IMG/VR virus record: IMGVR_UViG_3300038418_000072
Span: 1 to 29,211 of that record
Strand: one strand, 5' to 3'
Source: a virus
DNA length: 29,211 bases
Within the stretch, counting starts at the first letter, position 1; the number at the start of each line of letters is the position of its first letter. Below, piece after piece: positions 9,435 through 29,211 of the stretch. A model generated the notes under the pieces. That model saw only the letters and a list, made by a program, of their open reading frames with translations. It did no database searches and was not told the DNA's origin. A program made the position numbers and the translations under genes.

Positions 9435-10211
9435 ATGGGGATAGTGTTAGGAGAGTTCGATACTGAGGAGCTTTCAGCAACTGCTGAAATACCCTTGTTC
9501 ACTGAAAGTGTACATGAGCAAAAAGTGTACAAGGCGCAGGAAGCTGGTTTACAAAAGCCCGCAGATGTACACCTTGGGTTGGCAAATCAGCCTGAACCTA
9601 ATCTGCCACAGCATACTAAATACCGGCAGTATAGCGAACTCTTCCGCGATGAGGTCTTTGAGCACTATTGGATGCAAGGGCTGAACGGTGGGGAGCGCAG
9701 CTTCTCAGCCACAGCGAAAGAGTTCCAGCTCACAAGCGCGCAAGTGAGCAGTTGGTTCAAGCAATACCACTGGCAGGATAGGATTGACCTGCGGGCGCAA
9801 AAGATTGCGAAGAGGATGGATGAGCGCGCGGTAGAGAAGGTAAGCGAGATTAAGACAGCCTACCACCGTTTGATCCGCGGCATGGTGGAGGATTGGTTCA
9901 AGATGCACTTTGGGGATGCATCCAATAAGGCATTAACTCTTGCAGCAACCGACGTGGATGCTATTGTCAGACTGGTTAAGCTCGATCTTGTACTCCTTGG
10001 AGCCCCAGACACAATTCGCCAACTGGAAGGAACTGTGGTTCATCAGGTGGATGAGAACATTCGTGCATTGTCCACGGAGGACCTGAAAGCGATAGTGAAT
10101 GCGCGGAAGGAGCGAAAAGAATTGCCAGCAGCGGATGTTATAGTTCATGTAGAGAAGATCGCCCCGGAGGCGACGACTCTAGCAGAGACAGTAAGTGAGG
10201 AGAAGCATTGA
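9435..10211 (+). CDS. Terminase small subunit-like protein
   Basis: 258 residues. After a low-complexity N-terminal region (about 1-60), residues about 75-130 form a helix-turn-helix-like DNA-binding region: YSELFRDEVFEHYWMQG, then SATAKEFQLTSAQVSSWFKQYHW and a basic helix. A long helical part and an acidic tail follow. Such an HTH followed by an oligomerisation helix is typical of TerS, which binds the packaging site and loads the large subunit. It directly precedes terL with a 4-base overlap (TTGA). There is no ribosome-binding site at ATG 9435, consistent with a leaderless mRNA. The assignment rests on position and the HTH rather than on a diagnostic motif. Confidence 0.75.
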   Translation: MGIVLGEFDTEELSATAEIPLFTESVHEQKVYKAQEAGLQKPADVHLGLANQPEPNLPQHTKYRQYSELFRDEVFEHYWMQGLNGGERSFSATAKEFQLTSAQVSSWFKQYHWQDRIDLRAQKIAKRMDERAVEKVSEIKTAYHRLIRGMVEDWFKMHFGDASNKALTLAATDVDAIVRLVKLDLVLLGAPDTIRQLEGTVVHQVDENIRALSTEDLKAIVNARKERKELPAADVIVHVEKIAPEATTLAETVSEEKH

Positions 10212-12889
10212 GTGTACGTTCTTCAATCTCGCAACTTGGCGTAGATGAACTGGAAGCCTTGGCAGTGAAAGCTGAGTTGGAGTTAGCGAGGCGCGACCTT
10301 GGAGAATTTGGACGGCTGGTGTATGGTTACCAATGCCTGCCGCACATTCGACAATGGTGCGACGCGGTTCAAGATGACAGCATTGAGCAGCTGATCATCA
10401 TAAGCCCTCCGGGCAGCGCAAAGTCAACTTGGATGGGAACTGTGCTGCCCTCCTGGTATCTTGGCCGCAACCCGGACGGGCACATTTTACTGCTGTCCCA
10501 TTCTGCATCTCACGCTAGTAAGTTCTCTACGGCGGCTCGTGATACCATAGCATCTTCCCCGATTTATCACCAGATATTTCCACACATCAAGCCCGACGCG
10601 GCGAAAGGCTGGGCTCAAGATCGCTGGTACATCGAGCGCAGGAATGTTGGCGACCCGCATCCCACAATGATGGCATCTGGATTCGATGGCCCAATCCTCG
10701 GCAGTCGGGCGAGCCTCCTGATTTTGGATGATGTCATGGATGAAGCTTGTGCTGCGAGTGCTGAGCAGCGCGCGAAGTTAAAAGAGCTTATAAAGGGTAC
10801 AGTGTTTAGTCGCCGCGTGCGTGGATGCAAGAGTATTATAATTTTAACTCGCTGGAACGCTGACGATTTGGCGGCTGAATTTGTAGACTCCAAGGGCGTC
10901 GCAGCCCCCGGCTGGACTGTAATTCACATGCCCGCGATTGGTTACTGGGGTCCTGATACTCCACTTGCTCCTGAGATAGCTTCTCTGGATGAACTATTAG
11001 CAATTAAGAATGATGTCAGGGGTGGTATTATCAGGTTTGAAAATATCTGGCAAGGAAATCCCACGGTTCAGCAGGGCACGATTCTACAGCGTGCATGGTG
11101 GCGCAGGATGCCTCTCGCACAGATGCCGAGAAAGGAAGATTGCCAGGTTTTATTGCAGTGCTGGGATACTGCCTTCAAGAAGACGGCGGACTCTGCATTC
11201 AGCGTCTGTATAACGGCAGGCTTATATAAGGGGAGCATATTTTTTTACAATATGTACCGGAAAAAAATCGAATTTCCAGAGCTGCTCAAAGTGAGTAGGC
11301 AGTTGTTTAAGCTCGACAGACCGCGCTTAGTTCTGGTTGAGGACAAGGCTAGCGGGCAGTGTTACTCAGATGATACAGAAGTGCTCACGCGTCGAGGCTG
11401 GAAACTATTCGAGGAAGTGGATACAACCACAGATGAATTTGCCACGCGCAATCCGCAGACGAAGGAGTTTGAATGGCAGTATGCTTATGCCCGAACGGAT
11501 GAACCACATGCTGGGAACATGTATCACTTCTGCGGCAGGTCCATAGACATCCTTGTAACCCCAGAGCATAGGATGCTCATTGATCGCCTGCCGAGGAAAC
11601 TGGGAGGCAACGCACTTCGTAAAGGTGAGGTGGTAGTAGCAGCTAAGGATTTGGCTTTCGCTTGGAATGCCAGCCTAGACATACCAGTCACCTCAATATG
11701 GAGAGGAAAGCGAATTGTTTCCAAGTCCTTTCCAATGGATAAGCAAAAGCAGGCACAACGCTTTGCTGGAAGGGTTGACACTTTAGGTCGGCGTGTTGCT
11801 ACCAGTGAGCCTGCTCCTGTTCAGATGTCGGGGGATGACTATTGTGCCTTTATGGGCATGTACCTATCCGAAGGCTGGTGGAGAATACAAGAATCCAGCC
11901 GTAGCGGTGCCGTTTTCATTTGCCAGTATCCCACTTCCCCATACTTGCAGGAATTTTCGGATGCTCTAGATAGCATCTTTGGGCACAAAGTTCCGTACAG
12001 TTCTAGGAAGCATCAGTTCACTATTAGCCGAAGAGGACTTGCCGAACACATAGCAAAGTTTGGTCATCATGCTTGGGAGAAATTCGTACCAGATGATATT
12101 ATGAATGCCACTCCGAAGCAGTTGCGGATATTCTGGAAATTCTATTCAATGGGCGATGGTTGCACTGCTTCTGGTATGGAACAGATCACCACCTCTAGTG
12201 AGCATATGGCTGGGCAACTTGTGGAGATAGCGCAGAAGATTGGTCAACATGCTAGTATGGCTAAAAAGATTGCTAAAAAGGATATTCTCATCGGCAGTAA
12301 CAAGCACCCGACTTTAGCTGTAAACCGCAGACCGACTTATGTGGTGAGTCTGCGAAAGAGCAAGACAATGGGATTCCACGTTGAGCAACTGCCCTATTCT
12401 GGCATGGCTCACTGTATAAGCGTTCCCAATGGAATAATCTACGTGCGCAGGCATGGAAAACCTGCTTGGTGTGGGCAGTCTCTAATTCAATCCATCCAAG
12501 CTGGCACTGGCATTGAGGACTCCGCTGATAAGCAGTCGCTGACTCTGCCTATGCTGCCCATCAAGGCGGATAGCGATCCAGTTTCCTATGTGAATGCTTT
12601 TTCTGGCTATTTGGAGGCTGGACGTTGTTGGCTCCCGGTTGAGGGGCTGTGGCAGGACGACCTGCTGAATGAGTGCGCGGCGTTCCCCCAGGGTCAATAC
12701 AAGGACGTGCCAATGGTGTGGGCGCATATTATGAAATATATGACCTCCGGCGATCAATTCTCCCGCCTTTCCGAAGGCGCAATAGTGAGCATGCCCCCGA
12801 TGGCTGGCGAACCCAACCTTGGCGATTGGTCGGATTTGCCGGGGCCTAGCAGCATAGCCGAATTTCTCAATGAGTGGAAGGACTTATAG
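10208..12889 (+). CDS. terL: Terminase large subunit with intein
   Basis: 893 residues encoded, about 520 after splicing. The packaging motor has an ATPase with Walker A SPPGSAKST (66-74), Walker B SLLILDD ending at D174-D175, and a coupling motif IIILTRW. A RNase H-like nuclease follows, with CWDTAF (D320) and VLVEDKASGQ (E378, D379). The intein (385-757) interrupts right after the second nuclease motif, at ASGQ/SLIQ. The C-extein holds the third nuclease region (MLPIKADSDPVSYVNAFSGY). Start TTG 10208 overlaps the terS stop and has GAGGAG upstream. The enzyme docks on the portal encoded four genes downstream and cuts DNA during packaging; splicing should be required for nuclease function. 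Confidence 0.96.
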   Translation: MSVRSSISQLGVDELEALAVKAELELARRDLGEFGRLVYGYQCLPHIRQWCDAVQDDSIEQLIIISPPGSAKSTWMGTVLPSWYLGRNPDGHILLLSHSASHASKFSTAARDTIASSPIYHQIFPHIKPDAAKGWAQDRWYIERRNVGDPHPTMMASGFDGPILGSRASLLILDDVMDEACAASAEQRAKLKELIKGTVFSRRVRGCKSIIILTRWNADDLAAEFVDSKGVAAPGWTVIHMPAIGYWGPDTPLAPEIASLDELLAIKNDVRGGIIRFENIWQGNPTVQQGTILQRAWWRRMPLAQMPRKEDCQVLLQCWDTAFKKTADSAFSVCITAGLYKGSIFFYNMYRKKIEFPELLKVSRQLFKLDRPRLVLVEDKASGQCYSDDTEVLTRRGWKLFEEVDTTTDEFATRNPQTKEFEWQYAYARTDEPHAGNMYHFCGRSIDILVTPEHRMLIDRLPRKLGGNALRKGEVVVAAKDLAFAWNASLDIPVTSIWRGKRIVSKSFPMDKQKQAQRFAGRVDTLGRRVATSEPAPVQMSGDDYCAFMGMYLSEGWWRIQESSRSGAVFICQYPTSPYLQEFSDALDSIFGHKVPYSSRKHQFTISRRGLAEHIAKFGHHAWEKFVPDDIMNATPKQLRIFWKFYSMGDGCTASGMEQITTSSEHMAGQLVEIAQKIGQHASMAKKIAKKDILIGSNKHPTLAVNRRPTYVVSLRKSKTMGFHVEQLPYSGMAHCISVPNGIIYVRRHGKPAWCGQSLIQSIQAGTGIEDSADKQSLTLPMLPIKADSDPVSYVNAFSGYLEAGRCWLPVEGLWQDDLLNECAAFPQGQYKDVPMVWAHIMKYMTSGDQFSRLSEGAIVSMPPMAGEPNLGDWSDLPGPSSIAEFLNEWKDL
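11360..12478 (+). mobile_element. Intein with LAGLIDADG-type domain in terL
   Basis: 373 residues from Cys1 (CYSDDTEVLTRRGWK) to Gly-Gln (KPAWCGQ) before Ser+1. Block B has ILVTPEHRMLI (TxxH-like). LAGLIDADG-like helices are CAFMGMYLSEGWW and RIFWKFYSMGDGC. The end VPNGIIYVRRHGKPAWCGQ is the block F/G region. The terminal residue is Gln rather than Asn and the penultimate is Gly rather than His. C-terminal Gln is known in a minority of active inteins. The insertion point in the nuclease active-site motif is a typical conserved homing site. Confidence 0.92.
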
Positions 12890-13504: not shown

Positions 13505-13506
13505 CC

Positions 13507-13722: not shown

Positions 13723-13725
13723 ACA

Positions 13726-14007: not shown

Positions 14008-17000
14008 GTGTTCAATGCCAGCGAATATCGTTTTTCGGCTCGCCCAGCAACCGGGGCTCTAATCTTCCCTGATGGCGAGGAGCATAACTTTGCGCTGGGG
14101 CAAGCATGGCCCGGAGGCCCGGATTTATCTAGCTACGGTATAGACCTTACGCGCCTCGAACAGACTCCCTCGATCAGTGGAGGCCCAATTCCAGCACCTC
14201 CTGCTGCGCCATCGCCGCCTCCCACAGATGTAACGATAGGCGCACCTGGCACGCCCATATTTTCAGGTTTTCTGCGTGACCTTGGCGAGTACAATCCCAA
14301 GTTGGAAGGCCGCTCAGCCTTCCCCATCTATGAGAAGATGCGCCGCTCTGACGCCGATGTGCGTGCTGGTCTGGTTGCCTGTAAGCTGCCCGTCCGTGCT
14401 GCTGAGAAGCAAATTATCCCCGGCGTTGGCCCCAACGAACCTGACCATGGGCGCGCTAAAGAGATAGCTGACTTCGTGCGCGAGAACCTATTTGGTGGCC
14501 TAGAGCAGCAAACTCCCACGGGCGCATGGCAGACGCAAGCATTTGAGACTGTGGAAGAGAATGCGCTGCTATCCCTGGACTTTGGCTGTGCGGCCCATGA
14601 GGACATCTGGTCTATTGATGGGGACAATGTGCGTTTACGTAGGATGGCCCCCAGACTACCGTCCACCTTTTACCGCTGGTGGGTGGCGGATGATGGGGAT
14701 ACCCTGCTTGCTCTTGAGCAGTATGGCTACCGCAAGAACGAATATGTGAACGTCATCGTGCCCGCAGAGAAGATTTGTGTCTTCAACCACCAGAAGGAAG
14801 GCGCGAACTTCTTTGGCATGGCACTTGCGCTGGATACTCCCATACTGACTCTTGATGGTTGGAAGAATATGAACGACCTCCAAGTTGGAGATACCATCTT
14901 TGACGATCAGGGGCAGTTGACGAAGGTTGTTGCCAAGTCAGTTGTGTGGAAAAAGAGGCCGTGCTACCGTGTTATCTTTGGGGATGGAACCTCAGTAGTA
15001 GCGGACGCCAATCATCTGTGGCTTACTCAGACATTTCACGAACGGCATACTCGTAGGCAAGGTTCTGTGCGCACGACGAAGAGTTTGGTGGAGAGTCTAA
15101 CGTACAGTTATGGAAATGGAATGACGTGTTCCAACCATTCCATCCCGCGTTGCGCTCCTCTACAATATCTGAGACAGGACTTGCCTATTAATCCCTATAT
15201 TCTGGGGGCTTGGCTGGGAGATGGCAGCCATGACGGTAGCCGAGTAGCTTGCCACAGAAATGATGAAGAGCATTTAATTTCTATGGCGGAAGGTGCTGGG
15301 TATGCAACCGACTCTTCGCACAGCGGTAGGGTTGGAAGCTTGGGGCGGTCTGTTACCTTACATGGGCTTGTAACTCAGGTGAAGGGGCTGGGGCTGTATA
15401 AGAACAAATATATTCCAGAAGTCTACCTGCGCGGAGATGTAATTCAGCGTAAGGCTCTTCTGGCTGGATTGATGGATACTGATGGTTCTGTAAATTCTGA
15501 GGGGCAGTGCTCGTTCTGTAATAGTAACAGGAAGCTAATAGATGCAGTGGTCGAACTATTGCGCTCCTTGGGAGAGGCCCCTACTGTAGTGGAAATGACT
15601 ATTGGTGGAGAGAGGAAGAATCTTGCTTGGGAGGTACGATTCTTCCCAATGGAGACCCCATTTTCCTTGGAACGTAAAACAGAGGCTCTGAATGCAGCCA
15701 ATGCAGTAAAGAAATTCCGCAGACACCGCACGATGATTGTGGCGGTCGAGCGGGTTGAAGATCAGGACACCGTATGTATAGAAGTTGACAGTCCTAGCCA
15801 TCTTTTCTTATGTGGTGGTGGACTGCAAGTCACTCATAACTCAATACTTAGGTCGGCCTACCTGCATTGGTTCATGAAATCGAACCTATATCGCATAGAT
15901 GCTATAGCCTTGGAACGTAATGCTCAGGGGGTTCCCACCTTCAAACTCCCCACGGGCTATGCTACTGAGGATAAGAAAGCAGCCGTAGATTGGGCACGCC
16001 AGCTAGTTACGCATGAACAGACTGGCCTCGTATTGCCCCCTGGCTGGGAGTTTGAAATCAACGGTATCAAAGGTAGGCTACGTGACCCCTGGCAAAGTAT
16101 TCGTCATCACTCGGAAGAGATCGTCCGCTCCATGTTAGAAATGTTTATGGCTCTGGGCACAACTCAATCTGGCTCCCGCGCGCTTGGCAATACATTTGTG
16201 GACTTCTTCTTCCTGAGCTTGGAAGCAACCGCACGCCATATCGCAGATACTATCACCAACGGCACGATTCGCAGGCTGGTGGACTACAACTTCGATGCAA
16301 AGAAGGGCAAACCTCTACCCTACCCGAAGTTGGTTTACTCATCTATCGTAGTTCTCGACCCCATCGAAGTGGCTAGCGCAGTGAAGGATTTAGCAAACGC
16401 ACAGACTGATATTTTCCAGCCCGATGATGAGTTGGAGAATTACCTGCGCCGCAAGTTCTCACTGCCCCTCAAAACTAAGTTGCGGCCACGCTTCCTGCCT
16501 GTCCAGACTCGCCTTATGGAGTCGCCCATCGCGGATGAGACCATTAGCGAGATTGAAAGTGAATCTCCCACTGGCGGCAAGGTGCAACCTGAAAACGCAG
16601 GCAAGGGTGTGGGTGCGCTGGTATCCCAAGGCACTAAGGCTGGCGTGAAAAACACGACCACCGGCAAGCCCCCAGGAGCTATTCCTGGCCTTGAGCCAGC
16701 CCAGCGCACCCCTAAGCCTAAAGCCGCTAAAGTGCAAGCATCAGAAATTGGCGGGGATACTACCATCACAATGGTGGATGGTCTGGCGATTGGTGGAACA
16801 GTCTATGAGTTGCTCTTGTCAGAGGGCAATGGACGGCTCATAGCACTGGACTTCGACGGAGTTTTGGCCGAGCATGATCCTGACTACACTAAGGTTGGAG
16901 CCCCTATTCCTGCTGGTTTGCGCCTCGCGCAGGACTTGGTAGCCAAGGGCTTCAGACTTCTGATCTTCACTGCCCGTGTTAACCGCAAACCCGTTAAGGA

Positions 17001-17166
17001 ATTCTTGCAGGCTAATGGGATTGAATATGTGAAAGTGACAAACATCAAAGACCCCCTCGTGGTGGCATGGATTGACGACAGAGCGATCTCGGTAGACTCC
17101 AAAAAGCCGAAGACTTACCGCAAGGTGACTAAGAAGATCAGGAAGCTGGAGAAGCGTGGCATATAA
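14008..17166 (+). CDS. Portal protein (DUF935/Mu-like) with intein and C-terminal HAD-like domain
   Basis: 1052 residues encoded, about 712 after splicing. Residues about 85-271 and 612-860 form a DUF935-type portal: YEKMRRSDADVRAGLVACKLP, later KICVFNHQKEGANFFGM, then SILRSAYLHWFMKSNLYRIDAIALER after the intein. The portal is the dodecameric DNA gate of the capsid. A Pro/Ala-rich stretch (55-75) and a low-complexity linker (about 870-930) flank the core. The intein is residues 272-611. The C-terminal 110 residues carry HAD-fold motifs: ALDFDGVLAEHD (D948, D950), FTAR, and WIDDRA (D1023, D1024), with a Lys-rich end. GTG 14008 directly follows the previous stop. A HAD-like phosphatase domain on a portal is unusual; whether it is active, or a decoration inside or outside the capsid, is not known. 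Confidence 0.88.
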   Translation: MFNASEYRFSARPATGALIFPDGEEHNFALGQAWPGGPDLSSYGIDLTRLEQTPSISGGPIPAPPAAPSPPPTDVTIGAPGTPIFSGFLRDLGEYNPKLEGRSAFPIYEKMRRSDADVRAGLVACKLPVRAAEKQIIPGVGPNEPDHGRAKEIADFVRENLFGGLEQQTPTGAWQTQAFETVEENALLSLDFGCAAHEDIWSIDGDNVRLRRMAPRLPSTFYRWWVADDGDTLLALEQYGYRKNEYVNVIVPAEKICVFNHQKEGANFFGMALALDTPILTLDGWKNMNDLQVGDTIFDDQGQLTKVVAKSVVWKKRPCYRVIFGDGTSVVADANHLWLTQTFHERHTRRQGSVRTTKSLVESLTYSYGNGMTCSNHSIPRCAPLQYLRQDLPINPYILGAWLGDGSHDGSRVACHRNDEEHLISMAEGAGYATDSSHSGRVGSLGRSVTLHGLVTQVKGLGLYKNKYIPEVYLRGDVIQRKALLAGLMDTDGSVNSEGQCSFCNSNRKLIDAVVELLRSLGEAPTVVEMTIGGERKNLAWEVRFFPMETPFSLERKTEALNAANAVKKFRRHRTMIVAVERVEDQDTVCIEVDSPSHLFLCGGGLQVTHNSILRSAYLHWFMKSNLYRIDAIALERNAQGVPTFKLPTGYATEDKKAAVDWARQLVTHEQTGLVLPPGWEFEINGIKGRLRDPWQSIRHHSEEIVRSMLEMFMALGTTQSGSRALGNTFVDFFFLSLEATARHIADTITNGTIRRLVDYNFDAKKGKPLPYPKLVYSSIVVLDPIEVASAVKDLANAQTDIFQPDDELENYLRRKFSLPLKTKLRPRFLPVQTRLMESPIADETISEIESESPTGGKVQPENAGKGVGALVSQGTKAGVKNTTTGKPPGAIPGLEPAQRTPKPKAAKVQASEIGGDTTITMVDGLAIGGTVYELLLSEGNGRLIALDFDGVLAEHDPDYTKVGAPIPAGLRLAQDLVAKGFRLLIFTARVNRKPVKEFLQANGIEYVKVTNIKDPLVVAWIDDRAISVDSKKPKTYRKVTKKIRKLEKRGI
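14821..15840 (+). mobile_element. Probable class 3 intein (Ala1, WCT motif) in portal
   Basis: 340 residues from Ala1 (ALALDTPILTLDGWKNM) to His-Asn (LQVTHN) before Ser+1. The first residue is not a nucleophile. The three class 3 marker residues appear in place: Trp in block B (ANHLWL, portal residue 338), Cys in block F (TVCIEVDSPS, residue 590), and Thr just before the terminal His-Asn (residue 609). LAGLIDADG-like helices are ILGAWLGDGSHDG and LLAGLMDTDGSV. Class 3 inteins start splicing from the internal Cys, so removal of an Ala1 intein is plausible. Confidence 0.9.
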
Positions 17167-17193
17167 TCATGGGACGTTGCAAGGAGCGAAACT

Positions 17194-18087
17194 ATGCTGA
17201 AGAGGATTCTACTCTATGTGCTGGTGGGAGCAGCGGCACTGCTTTATCCTGCTCGCCTCACTGCACAGGTCAAGAGCGAGGCTCAAATTCTCAATGCGGC
17301 CTACGACCCAACGGCCCTCGCGCTCCGCGGCAATGCGGGCACGAATCCTAATCCCAATAACTGTTTGGCCCATCCTGGCTTCCTCAGCGCCGCGCAGATT
17401 CTTAATTGCGTGTACGACCCCATCGGACATGGGCTATACTTTAGCGGAATGGCCGGTGCCAGTATGACCATCGGGGGAGCCGTGGCGGGTGGTACACAAG
17501 CCTCTATCCTGTACATTGATACTAGCGGGAATCTTGCTCAGGACAACGCTTATTTCAGTTGGAGGGACTCAGATCATACCCTCACCGCAGCCAATGTTGC
17601 TGGCAATGCTACCTCGTCCACGGGTGGATATGGAGGGGCATTCAATGTTCCACCTCTTCCAGTACCCATCAACCTTGGGTTTACTATTGGCGGGGGTGGG
17701 ACTCTAGGTGTTGGAACATACTGCTATCGAATCACCGCCCTGAACATCTTTGGGGAAACTACGCCCTCAACAGAGACTTGCATCAACGCGACATCGGGTA
17801 GCAGCAACGAGGTTTACGTCTTTGCGGGGCGGTTCCTAAATGCTGCTAGCTGCAAAGTCTATGGGCGCACCTCTGGGGCAGAGCAATTCCTGCATGCGGG
17901 AATGCTCGTTGGTGAAGTTTGCGTCTACACCGACACGGGGGCTGACACACCATCGGGCTCTATGCCCGGAGCTAACACTACAGCAGGTTTCACAGTTGAT
18001 AGCACGCCTGGCGTCACAGCATCAGGAACTAGTTGCACGATAACTGCCATAAAGGGCGGTCTTATCACTGCCGCGACGTGCATCTAG
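17194..18087 (+). CDS. Exported fibre-like protein with signal peptide
   Basis: 297 residues. Start ATG 17194 has AAGGAG 7 nt upstream. The N terminus (KRILLYVLVGAAALLYPARLTAQ) is a clear signal peptide with a likely cleavage site after about residue 25. Two short related units follow (AQILNAAYDPTALALRG and AQILNCVYDPIGHGLYF), of a kind common in phage tail-fibre proteins. Gly/Ser/Thr-rich beta-type sequence continues to the end, with several Cys pairs that suit oxidising conditions outside the cytoplasm. A secretion signal on a protein next to the portal is odd for a virion part. It may act at the host surface or be a cell-wall-directed adhesin. Confidence 0.8.
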   Translation: MLKRILLYVLVGAAALLYPARLTAQVKSEAQILNAAYDPTALALRGNAGTNPNPNNCLAHPGFLSAAQILNCVYDPIGHGLYFSGMAGASMTIGGAVAGGTQASILYIDTSGNLAQDNAYFSWRDSDHTLTAANVAGNATSSTGGYGGAFNVPPLPVPINLGFTIGGGGTLGVGTYCYRITALNIFGETTPSTETCINATSGSSNEVYVFAGRFLNAASCKVYGRTSGAEQFLHAGMLVGEVCVYTDTGADTPSGSMPGANTTAGFTVDSTPGVTASGTSCTITAIKGGLITAATCI

Positions 18088-18125
18088 CCGGTGCCCGCAG
18101 CGAGATTACCAGTTTGAGGGATAAC

Positions 18126-18722
18126 ATGAAAAGATTACTGATCTTAGCGCTCTTGGCAACAATGATTCCGCTGTGGGCTGCTGGACAGCAGCAGTCTGTG
18201 ACGAAAGTGCTCACGATCACCGTGAGCGCTTCCCCAATCAGCTTCCCTGTGGTTTCTGTACCTAACATGATAGTTGGAACAGCGATTAGCACGATCACGT
18301 TCAGCACTTCAGGCGGCGTGGCCCCCTATGTTTACTCCATAAGCGTGGGCTCGCTTCCCACGGGTCTCACGCTTTCCAGCGCTGGCGTGCTTTCTGGCAC
18401 CCCAACCATAGCGGGGTCTTACTCTTTCACAGTACAAGTCGCGGATTCAGAGCTAACACCCCAGACTGCAACCCAGAGCTTTACGGTTAATGTTGCTGCT
18501 CTACTGAGCATCACGACCACGAGTTTGCCTGCTGGAACGGCTGCGGCTTCATATTCCGCAATGCTGGCTGCCACTGGCGGCACTACGCCGTACACATGGA
18601 GCCTTTCGTCTGGCACACTTCCTGCGGGGCTCACGCTGAGCGCTGCGGGGGTTATCTCTGGCACGCCAACGACTCCCGGAACCTACACGATTACGGTTAA
18701 GGTCACTGACGCTGGACATTAG
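18126..18722 (+). CDS. Secreted putative-Ig (He_PIG) domain protein
   Basis: 198 residues from ATG 18126, chosen over upstream codons because a GAGG site lies before it and the signal peptide starts here (KRLLILALLATMIPLWAAG). The mature part opens QQQSVTKVLTITV and holds two He_PIG-type Ig-like repeats. Each has the TP-Y-W/YS...LPxGLTLS-AGVxSGTP core and an FTV-V end. The second repeat stops at TVKVTDAGH without the last strand, so the protein may be slightly truncated. Such modules are abundant in secreted proteins of Acidobacteriota and relatives. Role in the phage is unknown; binding at the cell surface is a guess. Confidence 0.8.
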   Translation: MKRLLILALLATMIPLWAAGQQQSVTKVLTITVSASPISFPVVSVPNMIVGTAISTITFSTSGGVAPYVYSISVGSLPTGLTLSSAGVLSGTPTIAGSYSFTVQVADSELTPQTATQSFTVNVAALLSITTTSLPAGTAAASYSAMLAATGGTTPYTWSLSSGTLPAGLTLSAAGVISGTPTTPGTYTITVKVTDAGH

Positions 18723-19517: not shown

Positions 19518-19679
19518 ATGCTCAAAGACGGCTTAAAGACCAGAGATTCTGTAGGGATGGCACTTGGCTGCGCTTTCTGCGGAGAGCCCGCCGAGCAGAA
19601 CCACCAGTGTAGCTCTATTACCAAGCCTCACGCGCAGGGATCACAAGAGGAAACCTATGAGAAGCGAAAAAACATTTAG
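19518..19679 (+). CDS. Small Cys-rich ORF
   Basis: 53 residues from ATG 19518 (alternative ATG 19557, in frame). It contains CAFCGEP and a later Cys/His (NHQC), enough for a small zinc knuckle. The end overlaps the next gene by 23 nt. Ribosome-binding signals are weak, so this is a tentative gene. Confidence 0.35.
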   Translation: MLKDGLKTRDSVGMALGCAFCGEPAEQNHQCSSITKPHAQGSQEETYEKRKNI

Positions 19680-20187
19680 TAAACACGCAGTTGACATGCG
19701 GGATGCTATCGACCTGCACGTGATGAAGGGCCGGTTTGGCTTCATGCTGGGGGATGCGGAAGGCAAGCCTGTCTGGGATGAGCCGAAATATGCGGAGAAT
19801 ACCGTAGTCACGTCTGGCCGCGCATGGGTGCTGAAGCATATCATGTCCGCGCAGAGCACCAACGTCACTGCCAACCCAATCATCAGCGCGCTGGCCGTGG
19901 GAACTGTGAGCGCTACCGGCCCGACGACCTCAGACACGATCCTGGGCTCGGAAGTCTCCCGCAACACGAATATGACTGAGACTGACCAGACCACCAGCTC
20001 CGCCCCGTATTGCGTGTGGGCTTGCTCGTTTGCTACCAGCCAAGGCAACGCCACCAACTTGGCCGAGTTTGGGCTGTTCAACACGTCGAGCGCCAACGTG
20101 GCTACGCTACTGGCGAGGGCTACGACTACGGCGTTCTCAAAAACTACGTCAAATACGCTCACCGTGTCGTACACAATTAGTATATAG
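19657..20187 (+). CDS. Phage tail/virion structural protein
   Basis: 176 residues from ATG 19657, with AGAGG upstream. After a charged N terminus it has a beta-rich body: ENTVVTSGRAWVLKHIMSAQS, ISALAVGTVSATGP, TNLAEFGLF, and ends in ARATTTAF and SNTLTVSYTISI. This layout (a short helix, a beta sandwich with EFGLF, and a final alternating beta strand ending in YTI) is typical of small phage tail or fibre-associated proteins that follow tail tip genes. No signal peptide is present, in contrast to the genes before it. A strong hairpin terminator follows. Confidence 0.65.
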   Translation: MRSEKTFSKHAVDMRDAIDLHVMKGRFGFMLGDAEGKPVWDEPKYAENTVVTSGRAWVLKHIMSAQSTNVTANPIISALAVGTVSATGPTTSDTILGSEVSRNTNMTETDQTTSSAPYCVWACSFATSQGNATNLAEFGLFNTSSANVATLLARATTTAFSKTTSNTLTVSYTISI

Positions 20188-21179: not shown

Positions 21180-21956
21180 ATGAATGATGAGACTACTGCC
21201 AAGCCTATCAGTACACCCTTCGTGGTTGCCCCTGGAGCCCAAATCATCGCCAAGTCTGATGGCTCTTTCCATTATGAGCCTCCCAAAGCGGTTACTTTTC
21301 CACCCGACCTACAGAAGTTCATAGAAGCCTTCCAGAGGTTCTACTATGAGCCGCTGTGGAAAATGGCCCGTGACCAAGGGGCTCCACTTCCCATGGTGCG
21401 CTGGCTTGGTAACCCCTGCCAGAAGTGGATGTTCGACCTCTTCGTCATCCAGGAAATCATCTACGACACCCGCCCTGACATCATCATCGAATGCGGCACG
21501 AGCACTGGAGGTAGCGCTCTATTCATGGCATCTATATGCGAGTTGCTGCACCATGGAGAGGTTATCACGGTTGATATCGAGCAGTTCTCCCGCTCACTCC
21601 ATCCTGGCGTCACTTGGGTTGTGTCAGACGTACTTGACCCCGAGTTACTCGAAGGATTCCGAGATTGGTCAACGATGTCAGGCAAGGTTATGGTGGTGTT
21701 GGATGACGATCACACCAAAGACCATGTGCTTAGAGAGATGGAAGTGTACGGCGAGTTTGTGACGCCGGGCTGCTACATGGTGGTGGAGGATACAAACATC
21801 AACGGCCACCCAGTGTTCGACAACTTCGGGCCGGGGCCATGGGAGGCGGTGCAGGAATATCTGCCCCAACACCCTGAGTACGTGGTGGACAAGAGTCGGG
21901 AGCACTTGTTGTTGACACACAATCCCAGCGGATATCTGCTAAAGGTTAGAGGATGA
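21180..21956 (+). CDS. CmcI-family SAM-dependent methyltransferase
   Basis: 258 residues. The central SAM-binding region reads DIIIECGTSTGGSALFMASI (motif I, about 101-120), then GEVITVDIEQ, VVSDVLDPEL and VMVVLDDDHTKDHVLREM. The C-terminal part has YMVVEDTNINGHP and GPWEAVQEYL. This matches the cephalosporin hydroxylase/CmcI group, which includes sugar and rhamnosyl O-methyltransferases. It probably adds methyl groups to a glycan or small molecule. It starts at the leaderless ATG 21180 and overlaps the next gene by 4 nt. Confidence 0.88.
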   Translation: MNDETTAKPISTPFVVAPGAQIIAKSDGSFHYEPPKAVTFPPDLQKFIEAFQRFYYEPLWKMARDQGAPLPMVRWLGNPCQKWMFDLFVIQEIIYDTRPDIIIECGTSTGGSALFMASICELLHHGEVITVDIEQFSRSLHPGVTWVVSDVLDPELLEGFRDWSTMSGKVMVVLDDDHTKDHVLREMEVYGEFVTPGCYMVVEDTNINGHPVFDNFGPGPWEAVQEYLPQHPEYVVDKSREHLLLTHNPSGYLLKVRG

Positions 21957-22165
21957 CAGACGAGCAGATCAATGAGCTGGCAGAGAAGCGCGCTGAGGCT
22001 AAGGCGTCCGGGGACTATGCTAAAGCTGATTCCATCCGCTGCCAGCTAAGGAACCTGCCGGAGCGTGTCGAGATACTAGACTTGAAATCAGGCAAAACCC
22101 GTTGGTATAGAACTATGTTATCCCTAGAGGAGCGGAAAGCGATTCTGGACATCTACCCAGTATGA
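21953..22165 (+). CDS. Small protein like the C-terminal tail of cysteinyl-tRNA synthetase
   Basis: 70 residues. LAEKRAEAKASGDYAKADSIR followed by RVEILDLKSGKTRWYR closely follows the pattern of the final CysRS segment (R-x-A-R-x-x-K-D-F-x-x-A-D-x-I-R, then ELEDTxxGTRW). No catalytic domain is present. It is linked by ATGA overlaps to the methyltransferases on both sides. Function is unknown; it may bind RNA or a small partner. Confidence 0.7.
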   Translation: MTDEQINELAEKRAEAKASGDYAKADSIRCQLRNLPERVEILDLKSGKTRWYRTMLSLEERKAILDIYPV

Positions 22166-22860
22166 CCCCCAACTGTCGAGCATTCGTTAAATTGCTGTCT
22201 CAAGCTCACTCTCTGGGGCCGGTGGTGGAATTCGGCTCCCGTGTTATTGAGACTGCCGATGTAGAGTGTGACACCAACCTAAGAATGTACTTCCCCAATG
22301 TGGAGTACATTGGTTGCGATATTCAGGAAGGCAGAGGCGTAGATAGAATAGATAGTTGGGGGAAGTGTCTGACCTTTGCAGACTTCTCCATTGGCACCTT
22401 GCTGGCCATCGGGACATTGGAGCACGTTGCTGACCCGTGGCAGGCGATGAGACAGTCCTACAACGTTCTGCAACCTCAAGGGGTAATGCTTATAGCTACT
22501 CATTTCGACTTCCCCCTTCACCACCTACCTGACTATTGGCGGGTTTCGCCGCAGGGTATGGAGAAGCTGCTGGGGAGATTTGAGCGTCGGGTCTACTTCC
22601 AAGGAAGCATTGCGATGCCCCATGCAATCATAGGCGTTGCTTCCAAATCGAAAGAGGTGCTAGACCAAGTTTCTGGATACATCGAGCAGCACCTATGTGA
22701 AATACCAGCCCTGTTTGAGGGGGATATGATCTATAAGTGGATTGACGAGAAGACCTACAATGAGTTGCGGCGGCTAGAGCCGAGTCTAGTATACAAGTTG
22801 ACCCCAACCGGATGGGTGGGAAAAGCAGAAGATGGAGACAAGCGTGCTACTGAAAGATAA
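22162..22860 (+). CDS. Class I SAM-dependent methyltransferase-like protein
   Basis: 232 residues. VVEFGSRVIETADV (a loosely conserved motif I), VEYIGCDIQEGRGVD (acidic residue after beta 2), and IGTLEHVADPWQAM with YNVLQPQGVMLIATHF follow the order of the methyltransferase 11 family. The motif I glycines are fewer than normal, so SAM binding may be altered. The ATG overlaps the preceding stop. It is likely part of the same glycan-modification module. Confidence 0.75.
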   Translation: MTPNCRAFVKLLSQAHSLGPVVEFGSRVIETADVECDTNLRMYFPNVEYIGCDIQEGRGVDRIDSWGKCLTFADFSIGTLLAIGTLEHVADPWQAMRQSYNVLQPQGVMLIATHFDFPLHHLPDYWRVSPQGMEKLLGRFERRVYFQGSIAMPHAIIGVASKSKEVLDQVSGYIEQHLCEIPALFEGDMIYKWIDEKTYNELRRLEPSLVYKLTPTGWVGKAEDGDKRATER

Positions 22861-24493
22861 AGTCCGAAAGGGTGTTGCAGTTTGCGTACCTTCGCTGGGC
22901 ACAATAGTTCCCCAGCAGTGGGCATGGGCCATGAAATTCGTGGACTGCCCCATCAACTTCAATGCGCTCTACCACTCGCCGCAGGGCCTGCCTGTAGATG
23001 AAGCGCGCAACCAGTGTGCGGAGTTCGCCATCCAGCGCAACATGAAGTATATCTTCTTCGTGGATGAGGACACTGTGCCTGCTGCCGACGCGCTGCGGAA
23101 GCTGCTGTTTATAGCCGAGAACAATCCCGGTATAGACGTGGTAGGGGGCATCTATTTCTCCAAGTCTGACCCTCCCGCGCCGCTCGTCTTCCGTGGTAAT
23201 GGCGCTGGCCCCTATTGGGATTGGAAGGTTGGGGAGCTATTTTGGGTGACTGGTATCGGGATGGGCTGCACAGTCATCCGCGTGTCGTGCTTTGAGAGGC
23301 TGGAGAAGCCTTACTTCCTCACTGCGAAATCGGATGCAGGCATAGATGGGGTTGCGCGCGCAGAAGCATGGACTGAGGACTTGTACTTTGGCGAGAAGTT
23401 GCTGAGGTCTTATGGCTGGGAATCATCCGACGAAGCGCTGGCCAAGAGCAAGAAGCGCCTGAAGACTCTCCCCAAGCCAATCTGGGCCGATGGCTCAGTG
23501 CTGTGCGACCATATTGACGTGAACACGGGCAAGGTCTACAATCTACCTTGGAACTCTAAGCCCGCAGTGCGCAGGTTCGCGGTGGGTAAGAAGAAGATTC
23601 TCGACCTTGGCTGCGGCCCCATTGGCACAATCATGAAAGACGGCTTGCCCATCCGCGTGGACATGCGCGATGATGTGAATGCAGATTACCGCTGCGATGT
23701 GCGGATACTGCCTTTCAAGACGGAATCCTATGACGTGATCTTCTCCAGCCATACTCTAGAGCATTTCTCCCGCGAACAGCTTCTTAAACTGCTTGACGAA
23801 TGGCTGCGCATCCTGAAGCCGGGCGGCGAGTTGCGCCTTATTCTCCCCAACTTGGAAGTAGCCGCAAAGGACATCCTTGATGGGAAGATGTCTATGCGCA
23901 CTATGCATATTCTCTATGGTGAGCAGAACGAACTTTGGAACTACCACAAGAATGGCTTCACGCCGAAATCTATAGAGGAACTGCTGAAGTCAAAGGGCAT
24001 GAAGATCAAGAAGATATGGACGGAGGAGCCGTTCAATCTCTTTGTGGAAGCTACTAAAGGCGAGGCTATCAAGTCAATCGGCACGGGTGAAGGTCTCCTC
24101 ATCCAGAAAGAAGATGTGCAGCAAGCTGTGGAAGACAAGCTAGTAGCTGCGGCCACGCCATCAAAAGATGTGGCAGAAGCGTCTAGCAAGCCCACCATCC
24201 CCGTGAGAACTGGACATTGGGAAGATGGGGAGTTCAAGTATGACGCTGAGGGCAAGGGTGCTGTAACCGTAATGCCAATAGAGGATGCTGGCACGTTGGG
24301 CAAGAGCTTACTATTCACATCGTGCGAGGGGGCTATCCCCACCGTGGTAGCCTTCGGAACAGACAGCGAAGCAGCACGGCGCTGGCAGGGCGCGGAAGGG
24401 TTGAAGTTCATATCTCCAGGTAACGCTCTGGAGGGTGTGCCCCCAAGGTTACTCAAGAAGGTGCTTGGCAAGGCGCGGAAGCGTAAACGCTGA
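22832..24493 (+). CDS. Glycosyltransferase-methyltransferase fusion
   Basis: 553 residues with at least two enzymes. Residues about 1-235 resemble a GT-A glycosyltransferase: LPVDEARNQCAEFAIQRN, YIFFVDEDTVPAADALRKL (DxD-like VDEDT) and VVGGIYFSK. Residues about 250-400 form a class I methyltransferase: KKILDLGCGPIGT, VIFSSHTLEHFSREQLLKLL and EWLRILKPGGELRLILPN. The last 150 residues are unlike either and end in a basic tail (KARKRKR). The start at 22832 overlaps the previous gene by 29 nt; GTG 22844 has a better GGAG spacing and is an alternative. It probably builds and methylates a glycan on the virion or host surface. Confidence 0.85.
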   Translation: METSVLLKDKVRKGVAVCVPSLGTIVPQQWAWAMKFVDCPINFNALYHSPQGLPVDEARNQCAEFAIQRNMKYIFFVDEDTVPAADALRKLLFIAENNPGIDVVGGIYFSKSDPPAPLVFRGNGAGPYWDWKVGELFWVTGIGMGCTVIRVSCFERLEKPYFLTAKSDAGIDGVARAEAWTEDLYFGEKLLRSYGWESSDEALAKSKKRLKTLPKPIWADGSVLCDHIDVNTGKVYNLPWNSKPAVRRFAVGKKKILDLGCGPIGTIMKDGLPIRVDMRDDVNADYRCDVRILPFKTESYDVIFSSHTLEHFSREQLLKLLDEWLRILKPGGELRLILPNLEVAAKDILDGKMSMRTMHILYGEQNELWNYHKNGFTPKSIEELLKSKGMKIKKIWTEEPFNLFVEATKGEAIKSIGTGEGLLIQKEDVQQAVEDKLVAAATPSKDVAEASSKPTIPVRTGHWEDGEFKYDAEGKGAVTVMPIEDAGTLGKSLLFTSCEGAIPTVVAFGTDSEAARRWQGAEGLKFISPGNALEGVPPRLLKKVLGKARKRKR

Positions 24494-25176
24494 TGGCGAT
24501 TGTTAGAACACAATATGCTAAGAACGACAATGGTACTAGCGCCTCATCTTTTACCATCGGTTCTGGTCAAGGATGGGCGAGCACTAGTTCTGGTAGCACT
24601 GTCATTGTCGTCATGTTTGTCTTTAATGACACTCTTGCCCCTGCCACCACAGGGGTCACGGACAATCTCTCCAGCACGTATACCCCGGATTTGGCCCTCA
24701 TTGGTTCCTACGGAGGCATATATGTCTACAGGTTAAGTAATTGCCCCAGCGGCATTACCACCGTGAACATAAATTGGGTTGGAGGAGGACATGCATCTTC
24801 AGCCATGGCCTTGGAATACACTGGCTTGCAGTTAGGCAGTCCCCTGGATGCCGTGATTTCGGCACTCCATAATGATCTTTCGGCTACGTCTTGGACATCG
24901 AACAATATTGCTACAACTGGCAACGATCTATTGCTGGGGGCAAGCATGACCTTTAACCACTACACAGGCACAATGGCCGCCTCCGGGAATTGGACTGGAA
25001 TAGCTAACGTTGGGGACTCCGCTGATGGGGATGATGCGTTTGTCGAGGAACAGCTTAACAAAGTGTCGGGCACATATTCAGCATCGGGAACTGGAACGTC
25101 GGCTAACTACACAAGCGCGATAATCTCATATCTAGGAGTTGGGCTGATAACCGGCTGGCAGGTATTCATAGGATGA
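24493..25176 (+). CDS. Beta-rich adhesin/tail-type domain protein
   Basis: 227 residues, starting at ATG 24493 overlapped with the previous stop (TGATG). It has alternating beta pattern, rich in Ser/Thr/Gly: STVIVVMFVFNDTLAP, GVTDNLSSTYTPDLALIG, YVYRLSNCPSGITTVNINW, and MALEYTGLQLGSPLDAV. The same outline (a transport-like beta segment, V-D-N-xYT, a mid G-x-T-x-V strand, ExxG) recurs at the start and middle of the giant gene downstream, so this appears to be a paralogous single-domain copy. No signal peptide is seen. Likely a host-binding or tail decoration protein. Confidence 0.7.
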   Translation: MAIVRTQYAKNDNGTSASSFTIGSGQGWASTSSGSTVIVVMFVFNDTLAPATTGVTDNLSSTYTPDLALIGSYGGIYVYRLSNCPSGITTVNINWVGGGHASSAMALEYTGLQLGSPLDAVISALHNDLSATSWTSNNIATTGNDLLLGASMTFNHYTGTMAASGNWTGIANVGDSADGDDAFVEEQLNKVSGTYSASGTGTSANYTSAIISYLGVGLITGWQVFIG

Positions 25177-25457
25177 TTGTAGGCATTGTCCAATCCGTTG
25201 AAGATGCAGTCGCTTCCGGTTGGAGCGATAGACTTAGCTGCCAGCCCTTGCGCGTTGCTGCGGCTGCTTGTGCGCGAGGTACAGGCCATCTGTACCTCAA
25301 AATGCTGGACAATGGTTGGCTGCCGGTTCAGGATGGGTTTCAGATTGCCTATTGGTCTGATTCCTCTCCGCCTCTGCTCCACTTGAGAGCCAACCTATTT
25401 CCCCTTCCTATTCCATACCCCTTCCAATTTCATAGCGTCTTGCAGGGAGGCTTCTAG
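25173..25457 (+). CDS. Small hypothetical protein
   Basis: 94 residues, ATG overlapping the preceding stop (ATGA) and its TAG overlapping the GTG of the giant gene (TAGTG). Contains HLYLKMLDNGWLPVQDGF, and a Pro-rich end, PLPIPYPFQFHSVLQGGF. No motif is recognised. The coupled arrangement supports a real gene, but the amino acid composition is not decisive. Confidence 0.5.
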   Translation: MIVGIVQSVEDAVASGWSDRLSCQPLRVAAAACARGTGHLYLKMLDNGWLPVQDGFQIAYWSDSSPPLLHLRANLFPLPIPYPFQFHSVLQGGF

Positions 25458-28400
25458 TGGCCACCTACAGGACTAGTGCGGCAGGCGGCGGAACTTCCGG
25501 GACTGGCAACCGGACTGTCGCCATTACTCCTGCTGTAGGCGACTTGCTTGTTGTTTTCGTCGCTGTCTCCGTCAATACCCAGACTGCCCCGACAATGGCG
25601 GACGATAATGGGTCGGGCACCTATACTCTAATCAGTTATGGTCAGTGGAATACCTCTGCCAACACGATGTCAGTGTTCGTCCGCAATGCGTTGATGGTGA
25701 ACACGACTTCCACTACAATCACTGCTACTACAGGCTCGAACACTTCCGGTGAGTTAGTTGCGGTAGCCATTAGCGGGATGAAGGTAGCTGGGTCAGCGGC
25801 TATCGTCCAGAGCGCGAAACAGGAGAATGGAGCGGCTGCTGGCACTCCGCAGCCAGGTTTTGGTTCCAACGCAAACACGGTCAACGAGATTCTTGGTGGT
25901 GTAGCCAATGCCTCCAACCCTCCTGGGATGACGCATCCCGCGGGTGCGAGTTGGGCTCAGGCGCAGGATGTTGCGCAGATCACTCCTACTACGGGGCTTC
26001 ACGTTGATTACACCAATAGCGGTTTTTCTACGCAGACGGTTACTTGGGGCAGCGCATCAGCCACAGTATTTGCCGCCCTTATTGTTGAACTCGCGGCGGG
26101 GAAAGAAATTGCTTCACCTTCTGATACGTTATCACTGACTGAAGCGCAAAGTCGGGCGAGCGGGAGCATAGTATCACCCACTGACGCTGAAACTATAACG
26201 GACAGCGCCGCGATTGCCGTGGCGATTGCGCCTTTGCCTACTCCAGCCGATGCTAACGGTGTAGCCCCTAATTGGTCTGATGGCTCAGTCACAGTGCGGC
26301 TAGTCTATACCCTAGCGCTGTCTGACACCAACTCTGCAAACTGGTCGGATGCTAATAGTTATAGTGTCCAGATTGCTCTCGCTCCGGCAGATACCACAAC
26401 TTCAAACTGGTCAGATGCTGAAGCGCTGGGCGAGAGTTGGGTTTACTACCCCAGTGATTCTCAAGCTTCAAACTGGTCTGATATTCAATCCCCACTTGCG
26501 GGCGAAACTGTATCTCCCAGTGATGATTCCTCTTCAAACTGGTCTGACGCGCGGGTAATAGCTACTGCAATTGCTCCCCTTCCTGCGCCAGTGGATACTA
26601 CAGCCTCTAATTGGTCTGACAGCGAGAGTTGCCTAGATGGAGAGCAGCTTTCTCCCTCTGACGACGAATCTAGCAATTGGTCGGATGCCACAGCCTTAGC
26701 GCTTGGCGAACAGGTCTCTCCATCTGACACGCAGGCATCTGCATGGTCTGATGGCGGGGCGGTATCAGAGATTGGCGCTTCAACAGCAGCGCCAACAGAC
26801 ACGACCGATTCCAATTGGACAGATGCTGAGGCTTTGCTAGTTGGGGAACAGGTCTCTCTAAGCGATTCTAATTCAGCCAACTGGGGGGATTCCGAAAGCA
26901 TATTCCTAGACAAGCAGATTTCCACCTTGGATGATGAGTCCGCCAACTGGTCTGATTCCGAGAGTCTGCTCCTCAGCGAACAATCCCTGCCAAGTGACGA
27001 TGAAACCGGCAACTGGTTGGATGTTTTAGGCGAAACTCTATCCCTTCCGTACTCACCCAGTGATGATTCTACCTCCAACTGGTCTGATGGAGTCGCATGG
27101 TGGGCGGGAATATCTAAATCCTTAACCGATTCCGAAGTTTCCGAATGGTTGGATGCCATAGGCCAGACCATGGCGGGTGGTGGCATCGTCCGCGTGCAGG
27201 CCCCAGTGGGAGTAAGCACATTATTGGCGCTTCCCCACAGTATTCCGTGCGCCTCTACCGGGTCGGGTAATGCATTATTCGTTCTTGTCTATTGCTCCAG
27301 CCCAGTAAGTCTTGGTGCATACGGAAGTGTTATTGATGATGCGGGCAACGTCTACTCCCACGTATGCCAGTTTTACAAGTCAACCCATGGGCAGGCTGAC
27401 ATCTTTGCGTGCCTGAATAGCACAGCTGGAGCGACGAGCGTAACCTTCACCGCTCCCGATGCTAGGCTTTGGTGGGTATTCTTCGCTGAATACCAAGGCA
27501 TTGTGACGGTTAATGCCTTTGACAGGACATCAGGCTCTGCTGCATATGCTTACAGTTCCGGCAGCACGGCGACAACCTCCCAAGCAACTGAATTATTACT
27601 CGGCATAGCAGGAAACTCAGATACGCCTAGCGTATATTCCCCAGGAACCGACTGGACTTGCCCCGTCCCAGAAGTTGGCCACATAACGCAGGGAAGTTCC
27701 AGGTGGCAGGAGCAGATAGTCGGCTCGCAAGGGTCTTATGCGGCAACGGGTACATGTGGGTCAACAGCCGCCTGCTTAATCGCTACTTTCTTGGCTGCTT
27801 CTGGTGGGGGGGGTGTTTGCCAGCCCGCTGATAGTTCCGTATCCAACTGGTCTGACACGGTAAGTGTTCAGCTTGCGGAAACTGTCTCTTCCTCAGATGA
27901 TGAATCAGCATACTGGGCCGATTCTGCGGCTTTTGTTGTTGGTATACCTGTACAGCCTAGCGACTCAGAAGCTGCTAACTGGTTGGATAGTGAGAACCTA
28001 GCCTTTAATATCCTCGCGCAGCCTAGCGATGATTCGAGTTCCAATTGGTCGGATGGCTCAGTAACAGTCTCATTCGTTTACTTTATGGTCATAGCAGAGG
28101 ACACCTCTGCGAATTGGTCAGACACCACTGTCTATTCCTTGGCGAGCCTTGGCGGAGAGACGGCGCTTCCAGATGACAGTGAATCAGCCAATTGGAGTGA
28201 TGCTATCCCCTTGGCGCTCGGTGCGCAGGTTTCCCCATCCGACTCGGAGGCTGCCTACTGGACGGAAGCTCAGACTCTAATAAACGGCATTCCTGTCCAG
28301 CTTGGTGATACGCAGACAAGCAATTGGTCTGACGCGCAGACTCCGGTAATTGGTGTGCCAGCACAACTTGGCGATACCAGTGTATCCAACTGGTCAGACG

Positions 28401-29211
28401 CAGTAGGTCTCGTCTGCGGAGAACAGGTTCCTCTTGGCGACTCGGATGTTTCAAATTGGAATGAAGCAGAAGCAGTTGTCCTAGGGGAGCAGGTCTCTCC
28501 ATCCGATTCTGAAACCCCCAACTGGAGCGATTCTCTCAACCAGATTCAGTGGCTCCAACCGCAACCCTCTGATTCACAGGTTAGCAATTGGGCTGACGCG
28601 GCCAGCCTGTGGCTGGGAGAGCAGGTATCCCCTTCCGACTCTGAGAGTGCAAATTGGAACGAAACACAGATACCTATCGTGGGCTCTTCGCTACAGCCAA
28701 GTGACACACAAGTAAGCAACTGGGGAGATTCGGCATCACTGGTTGATGGTGGACAAGTCTCCCCAAGTGACTCCGAAATCGCCAACTGGGGAGACTCTGA
28801 AGCCTTAGTCCTGGGAGAACAACTATCCCCGTCCGATTCGGAAGTTGGCAACTGGACTGATGCTATCGGCCAAATCCAGTGGTTGCAGCCCCAGCCTTCA
28901 GATTCTCAAACTGGCAATTGGTTGGATGTCGTAAGCGTCCTAGTTGGGGAACTTATCTCAGCTTCCAATTCTGAGGTGAGCAACTGGTCGGATGCTCAGA
29001 CGCCGGTTGCTGGAGCCACACCACAGCCCAGCGATTCACAGTCCAATAATTGGAGTGACGCGGTAACGTTGGTAAATGGAGAGCAAGTCGCTCCAAGTGA
29101 TTCTGATGTTGCTAACTGGTCTGACTCAGGAAGCTTGATTCTGGGTGGGCAGGTGTCGCCTAGCGACTCTGAAACGGGCAACTGGTCGGATAGCACCAGC
29201 CAGATTCTATG
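25457..29211 (+). CDS. Giant NWSD-repeat protein, incomplete at window end
   Basis: At least 1251 residues from GTG 25457, with GGAGG 6 nt upstream; no stop before the window ends. Residues 1-215 are a beta-rich domain (VGDLLVVFVAVSVN, MADDNGSGTYTLI, GELVAVAISGMK, VFAALIVELA). Residues about 216-574 hold the first array of the 22-residue repeat, 14 units with Trp plus two degenerate ones. Residues about 575-790 are a second copy of the beta-rich domain (GNALFVLVYCSS, VIDDAGNVYSHV, WVFFAEYQGIV), followed by a Gly run. From about residue 791 a second array of 21 repeats continues to the window end. The usual unit is NWSDAxxLxLGEQVSPSDSExS. A rod- or solenoid-like stalk carrying globular heads, such as a long tail fibre or adhesin, is the simplest reading. 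No signal peptide is seen, and the real C terminus is unseen. Confidence 0.9.
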   Translation, partial: MATYRTSAAGGGTSGTGNRTVAITPAVGDLLVVFVAVSVNTQTAPTMADDNGSGTYTLISYGQWNTSANTMSVFVRNALMVNTTSTTITATTGSNTSGELVAVAISGMKVAGSAAIVQSAKQENGAAAGTPQPGFGSNANTVNEILGGVANASNPPGMTHPAGASWAQAQDVAQITPTTGLHVDYTNSGFSTQTVTWGSASATVFAALIVELAAGKEIASPSDTLSLTEAQSRASGSIVSPTDAETITDSAAIAVAIAPLPTPADANGVAPNWSDGSVTVRLVYTLALSDTNSANWSDANSYSVQIALAPADTTTSNWSDAEALGESWVYYPSDSQASNWSDIQSPLAGETVSPSDDSSSNWSDARVIATAIAPLPAPVDTTASNWSDSESCLDGEQLSPSDDESSNWSDATALALGEQVSPSDTQASAWSDGGAVSEIGASTAAPTDTTDSNWTDAEALLVGEQVSLSDSNSANWGDSESIFLDKQISTLDDESANWSDSESLLLSEQSLPSDDETGNWLDVLGETLSLPYSPSDDSTSNWSDGVAWWAGISKSLTDSEVSEWLDAIGQTMAGGGIVRVQAPVGVSTLLALPHSIPCASTGSGNALFVLVYCSSPVSLGAYGSVIDDAGNVYSHVCQFYKSTHGQADIFACLNSTAGATSVTFTAPDARLWWVFFAEYQGIVTVNAFDRTSGSAAYAYSSGSTATTSQATELLLGIAGNSDTPSVYSPGTDWTCPVPEVGHITQGSSRWQEQIVGSQGSYAATGTCGSTAACLIATFLAASGGGGVCQPADSSVSNWSDTVSVQLAETVSSSDDESAYWADSAAFVVGIPVQPSDSEAANWLDSENLAFNILAQPSDDSSSNWSDGSVTVSFVYFMVIAEDTSANWSDTTVYSLASLGGETALPDDSESANWSDAIPLALGAQVSPSDSEAAYWTEAQTLINGIPVQLGDTQTSNWSDAQTPVIGVPAQLGDTSVSNWSDAVGLVCGEQVPLGDSDVSNWNEAEAVVLGEQVSPSDSETPNWSDSLNQIQWLQPQPSDSQVSNWADAASLWLGEQVSPSDSESANWNETQIPIVGSSLQPSDTQVSNWGDSASLVDGGQVSPSDSEIANWGDSEALVLGEQLSPSDSEVGNWTDAIGQIQWLQPQPSDSQTGNWLDVVSVLVGELISASNSEVSNWSDAQTPVAGATPQPSDSQSNNWSDAVTLVNGEQVAPSDSDVANWSDSGSLILGGQVSPSDSETGNWSDSTSQIL
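26102..27179 (+). repeat. NWSD repeat array 1 (coding, 66-nt period)
   Basis: Fourteen units marked by a Trp codon at 26273, 26342, 26408, 26474, 26540, 26612, 26678, 26744, 26816, 26882, 26948, 27014, 27080 and 27146. Ten of 13 spacings are exactly 66 nt; the others are 69, 72 and 72. Two degenerate units (SPSDTLSLTEA and SPTDAETITDSA) precede them from 26105. Ser in NWSD is encoded by both TCN and AGY codons across the gene, so identity is at the protein level. Confidence 0.95.
27824..29211 (+). repeat. NWSD repeat array 2 (coding, 66-nt period, 330-nt super-period)
   Basis: Twenty-one units with Trp codons at 27848, 27914, 27980, 28046, 28115, 28193, then every 66 nt from 28259 to 29183. 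Eighteen of 20 spacings are 66 nt. From 28325 onward a 330-nt (five-unit) higher-order pattern is seen: for example QIQWLQPQPSDSQ follows the Trp codons at 28523 and 28853, and SQI follows at 29183. The array continues past the window end. Confidence 0.95.

Follow-up and report, generated by a model that had tools for sequence, protein, structure and literature searches.

The window (IMG/VR virus record IMGVR_UViG_3300038418_000072, the whole 29,211-nt stretch that was analysed) contains phage structural genes and, at its 3′ edge, a large repeat-protein gene. The frame of this gene (25457-29209, + strand) begins with GTG, covers 1251 aa and is open at the window edge. Upstream lie genes for the terminase small and large subunits, the portal, a phrog_5417 protein and three methyltransferase-type genes, the last of which, a fusion gene, is separated from the repeat gene by two small frames. 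The features are as follows.

10208..12889, + strand: terminase large subunit, probably interrupted by an intein
14008..17166, + strand: portal protein, probably interrupted by an intein; locates the structural module
19564..20187, + strand: phrog_5417 protein
21180..21956, + strand: Rhamnosyl O-methyltransferase/CmcI family gene (PF04989)
22162..22860, + strand: methyltransferase gene
22832..24493, + strand: GT2-like and methyltransferase fusion gene, a conserved upstream neighbour of repeat genes elsewhere
24493..25176, + strand: separate globular-domain gene, weakly similar to the central domain of the repeat protein
25457..29211, + strand: repeat-protein gene, 5′ part (1251 codons; 2110 aa once joined to contig L011)
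25457..26107, + strand: N-terminal domain, modelled with beta strands at low confidence
26108..26245, + strand: degenerate LSD-like first units (SPSDTLSLTEA, SPTDAETITDSA), assigned by sequence
26246..27184, + strand: array 1, 14 W-x-D units (W273-W564)
27176..27841, + strand: central globular domain between the arrays (~220 aa), its flanks overlapping the outer units of both
27821..29211, + strand: array 2, 21 W-x-D units (W798-W1243), continuing on L011

The original prediction described a protein of at least 35 repeat units, split 14 and 21 between two arrays, and counting units as W-x-[DE] recovered both arrays in the frame. The claimed 66-nt Trp spacing is equally real: 28 of the 33 gaps within the arrays measure 22 residues (the other five are 23, 23, 24, 24 and 26), against a mean of 2.0 and a maximum of 7 such W-W pairs in 2,000 shuffles. 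Numbered from the tryptophan (W0), the unit consensus is P-8, S-7, D-6, S/T/D-5, N-1, W0, D+2 and A/S+3, followed by hydrophobic residues at +6 to +8, G+9 and V/L+12. Array 2 also contains a 5-unit (110-aa) higher-order repeat linking W1023, W1133 and W1243, and Lys and Arg are nearly absent from the repeats (0-1.3%); both features had previously gone unremarked. The division into two arrays stands, but what had been taken merely as a gap between them is a globular domain of ~220 aa, into the start of which the final unit of array 1 extends. This central domain shows 25% identity to the product of 24493-25176 (E 0.005, in a single comparison). The N-terminal domain shares 49-50% identity with the N-terminus of a protein from another phage (L012); hhalign did not show homology between this domain and the central domain or the 24493 product (probability 0.1%). 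The predicted structure of the N-terminal domain contains beta strands (pLDDT 46), and its structural matches in the PDB were not significant, the best being a Tuc2009 baseplate protein (E 0.02). A solenoid or stalk had been suggested for the repeats. AlphaFold2 modeling of nine units from a 10-row alignment gave one short strand per unit as the sole regular feature and no confident fold (pLDDT 34, pTM 0.19).

The units have diverged widely. Mean identity between unit pairs is 45.5% at the nucleotide level and 36% at the protein level, and synonymous sites are near saturation (pS 0.78 versus pN 0.47), in agreement with the predicted nucleotide divergence of the copies. Recent slippage was ruled out, as no exact repeat within the array exceeds 16 nt and synonymous sites are saturated. 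Long-term selection on the peptide had been argued from the switching of the serine after Trp between TCN and AGY codons. That serine is encoded by AGY in three units (W913, W1023 and W1199) and by TCN in the remaining ones, but over 34 units the position holds S in only 20, with L in 4, T and G in 3 each, and A and N in 2 each. As the position is not conserved, codon switching by itself argues only weakly for selection on that Ser. The selection itself is better argued from the saturated synonymous change, and the retention of D-6, N-1, W0 and D+2 despite it supports an old array that has probably been held under peptide selection.

Completion of the gene beyond position 29211, which had been proposed as a check, came from a 3-unit pattern scan of IMG/VR. 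This identified the end of a 53,077-bp contig (L011), which overlaps the final 129 bp of the window; 126 bases of the overlap are exact, and a single mismatch lies near the tip. Given the 16-nt limit on exact repeats inside the array, an overlap of this length indicates that the two were not mis-joined within it. The join is further supported by an upstream marker in the window and a downstream marker on L011, flanking the gene as in the related locus L069. Joined, the two parts encode a protein of 2110 residues that contains 73 W-x-D/E units, mixes NW and LSD unit forms in its far half and ends in an Arg-containing, Gly/Ser-rich tail (GGSAESRSQGG...ENRDRVGSVESHSKGSVVPRSKQD). The pitch is not the invariant 22 residues originally proposed: 45 of the 72 gaps in the completed protein are 22, and gaps of 20, 21, 23, 24 and 26 are also present.

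To find relatives in other phages, we used the fusion gene as an anchor and gathered 16 loci. Repeat genes are found 3′ of it in L069, L086, L088, L090, L092 and L094, and at several loci the gene or genes that follow it encode ~18-22-residue 'SD' repeats (LSDxLTLSDA, DNINNLADA, DALGSYADS). The form varies by locus: NWADA in L069, LSD with some NW in L086 and L082, DALGSYADS and DNLNAWADS in L088, and LSD, NINNLADA and DDLNNWQD among L090, L092 and L094/L095. NW and LSD units occur within one protein in L069, L082_b and L011, and in the window's own first units. At L093 the protein in the fibre slot (12837-17729, 1630 aa) carries an unrelated AQAQAxIKQTY repeat array. In several of the related loci, genes that by eye resemble the phrog_5417 gene lie 5′ of the fusion gene.

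The unit profile proposed for searching phage proteins does reach these relatives. A 2-unit profile built from window units only matched L069 at 105 bits, a score inflated by compositional bias (bias term 52 bits), and reached 43 and 27 bits for L082; reversed copies were not matched. A broader profile, A5, found L090 (5e-10) and L094 (4e-9), neither of which was used in building it. In profile comparisons the NW units of the window matched the L069 units with a probability of 95% (E 2e-8), and hhalign scores of NW against the LSD sets of L082, L090 and L094 were 12.6-13.9, versus maxima of 7.5-8.9 over 20 column shuffles for each set. The Y-form units of L088 (10.1 versus 11.1 for the shuffle) and the L092 units were not separable from column shuffles by hhalign. 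When viral contigs were scanned with single-protein patterns and with DNA patterns of 2-4 units, W-form arrays appeared, besides L011, only in L068 and L069; nearly all other matches were unrelated repeats or out of frame. A pattern scan of genome contigs returned 4 matches and no NW-repeat proteins. A profile search of 379 genomes from the phylum of L074 (Polyangiaceae), with no positive control among them, found nothing, and tblastn in phage and plasmid collections gave no repeat matches, under a low-complexity filter that may mask repeats.

The NWSD repeat matched no family in Pfam, PHROGs, NCBIfam or the PDB, consistent with the prediction that this form is unnamed, and a literature search found no paper on it. 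The nearest library entry is phrog_12240 (function unknown), which is matched by the L090, L094 and L086 proteins (PHROGs v4); the window protein itself has no PHROGs match, phrog_12240 included. The phrog_12240/LSDxLTLSDA repeats share with the window units of ~18-22 residues, a pair of Asp at a spacing of 6-8 with a hydrophobic residue at position -2 from the second, the same gene slot and mixed arrays. They differ in having Leu for Trp, an Asp-Asp spacing of mostly 6-7 rather than mostly 8, and a pitch of mostly 18-21 rather than 22. The suspected kinship with LSDSLTLSD-type repeats is thus borne out by the mixed arrays of L069, L082 and the far half of the protein, and by the three LSD sets that score above their shuffles. 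Because NW and LSD forms are mixed and LSD-type repeats occur at related loci, the NWSD unit is, as judged from sequence, a W-form variant of a widespread, unnamed phage repeat class. NW and LSD forms fill equivalent gene slots in different phages, which is a new observation. The L069 protein (IMGVR_UViG_3300031369_000028) is a close counterpart, with NWADA units at a 22-residue pitch between the fusion gene and a Gp77 gene; unlike the window protein, it is 347 aa long and Ala-rich, has LSDTLSFSDA units mixed in and lacks a globular domain. A protein of Microcystis phage Mae-JY22 (XAI95683.1, L172:744-1421) also has a 22-residue repeat with an Asp-Asp spacing of 8, but it carries a D-x-x-H-x-H-x-x-D motif and shows no detectable profile similarity to the window repeat (probability 0.07%).

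The gene directly 3′ of the repeat gene on the L011 contig matches Pfam Gp77 (PF23148, 'Podophage GP4 fiber-tail adaptor', E 2e-11) and PDB 8jou_D (E 2e-4), and is followed by genes for a head maturation protease, a major head protein and a neck protein. Gp77 is likewise the next gene after the repeat gene in L069 (E 9e-25), where it is fused to a head-completion domain, and in L094 (E 8e-27), so that three loci have an adaptor gene at this position. In L088 the immediate 3′ neighbour is a tail tubular protein (E 7e-4), and in the cultured phages LilDestine and Bernal13 a Gp77 relative sits among minor tail protein genes. The podophage GP4 system (PDB 8jou) shares the adaptor-family gene, but no PDB sequence, including those of the GP4 proteins, matches the repeat protein. 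C-termini rich in [ED]-x-R were seen directly upstream of a Gp77 relative in L170:2607-3953 and shortly upstream of one in the Mae-JY22 protein (there E-x-R), and also at an ORF C-terminus on the - strand of L142. They are a possible anchoring signal; in the joined protein the signal is weak, with two E-x-R in the last 70 residues against a background mean of 0.46.

We interpret the repeat protein as probably an extended fibre, or whisker, on the virion of an uncultivated tailed phage. In this reading its ~73 W-x-D units would make up a stalk that is acidic and poor in Lys and Arg, and the beta-rich globular domains set between them could bind a glycan of the host or of the environment. The fibre would be attached through its Arg-containing C-terminal tail to the Gp77-type adaptor, the product of the adjoining gene. 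Modification of the fibre or of the host by the GT2/methyltransferase is conceivable, as is metal binding by the paired acidic Asp. A fibre is supported by the Gp77 adaptor genes next to repeat genes at three loci, by terminase and portal genes upstream and by head protease, major head and neck genes downstream; its position between portal and head protease, outside the classic tail-fibre block, counts against it. That same position, ahead of the protease and major head protein, would suit a head fibre or capsid decoration, a flexible acidic brush that helps the capsid stick to surfaces or polysaccharide, and the unconfident fold and D/S/T-rich, Lys/Arg-poor composition also fit a brush. We consider this unlikely, given the fibre-tail adaptor family next door at three loci and the tail tubular protein in L088.

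The lack of a confident fold, together with 24-27% Ser+Thr in the window arrays and a GT2-like/methyltransferase fusion upstream of repeat genes at several loci, might instead indicate a mostly disordered Ser/Thr-rich scaffold glycosylated by the adjacent GT2/methyltransferase, comparable in principle to serine-rich repeat adhesins. This seems less likely still: Asp, Trp and Asn, not Ser/Thr, are the most conserved positions, the GT2 match falls under the Pfam cut-off (21.9 versus 23.3), and L085-type loci pair the same fusion gene with globular proteins free of these repeats. N-W-S as an N-glycosylation sequon was ruled out because its S is not conserved (NWL, NWG, NWA and NWN occur). A secreted or host-surface protein outside the virion is very improbable; genes at 17194 and 18033 begin, by eye, with signal-peptide-like sequences, but the repeat protein begins MATYRTSAAGG, with no such stretch, and an adaptor gene adjoins it. 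A more elaborate version of the fibre reading, which we regard as speculative and rather improbable, envisages a new solenoid/fibre module with a swappable aromatic or aliphatic core position (W/L/Y) between two Asp that bind divalent metal, giving exchangeable Gp77-docked stalks modified by the GT2-methyltransferase. The synteny places an unnamed group of repeat proteins from phages in a single conserved position, next to fibre-adaptor and sugar-modifying genes. This offers a way to annotate, as probable fibres, a class of large 'hypothetical' proteins from uncultivated phages, and it defines a repeat family with a testable structure.

Elsewhere in the window, the terminase, the portal and a metallophosphatase-like frame (5809-7677, - strand) each appear to bear an intein, with termini placed by eye; residues ~263-626 of the portal have matches in other PHROG terminase families. 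The frames 17194-18087 and 18033-18722 encode structural-module proteins, the second with He_PIG Ig-like domains. Bases 1-90 repeat the sequence at 3018-3107 exactly but in inverted orientation, inside a cytosine-methyltransferase-like frame, and represent either an inverted duplication or an assembly artefact.
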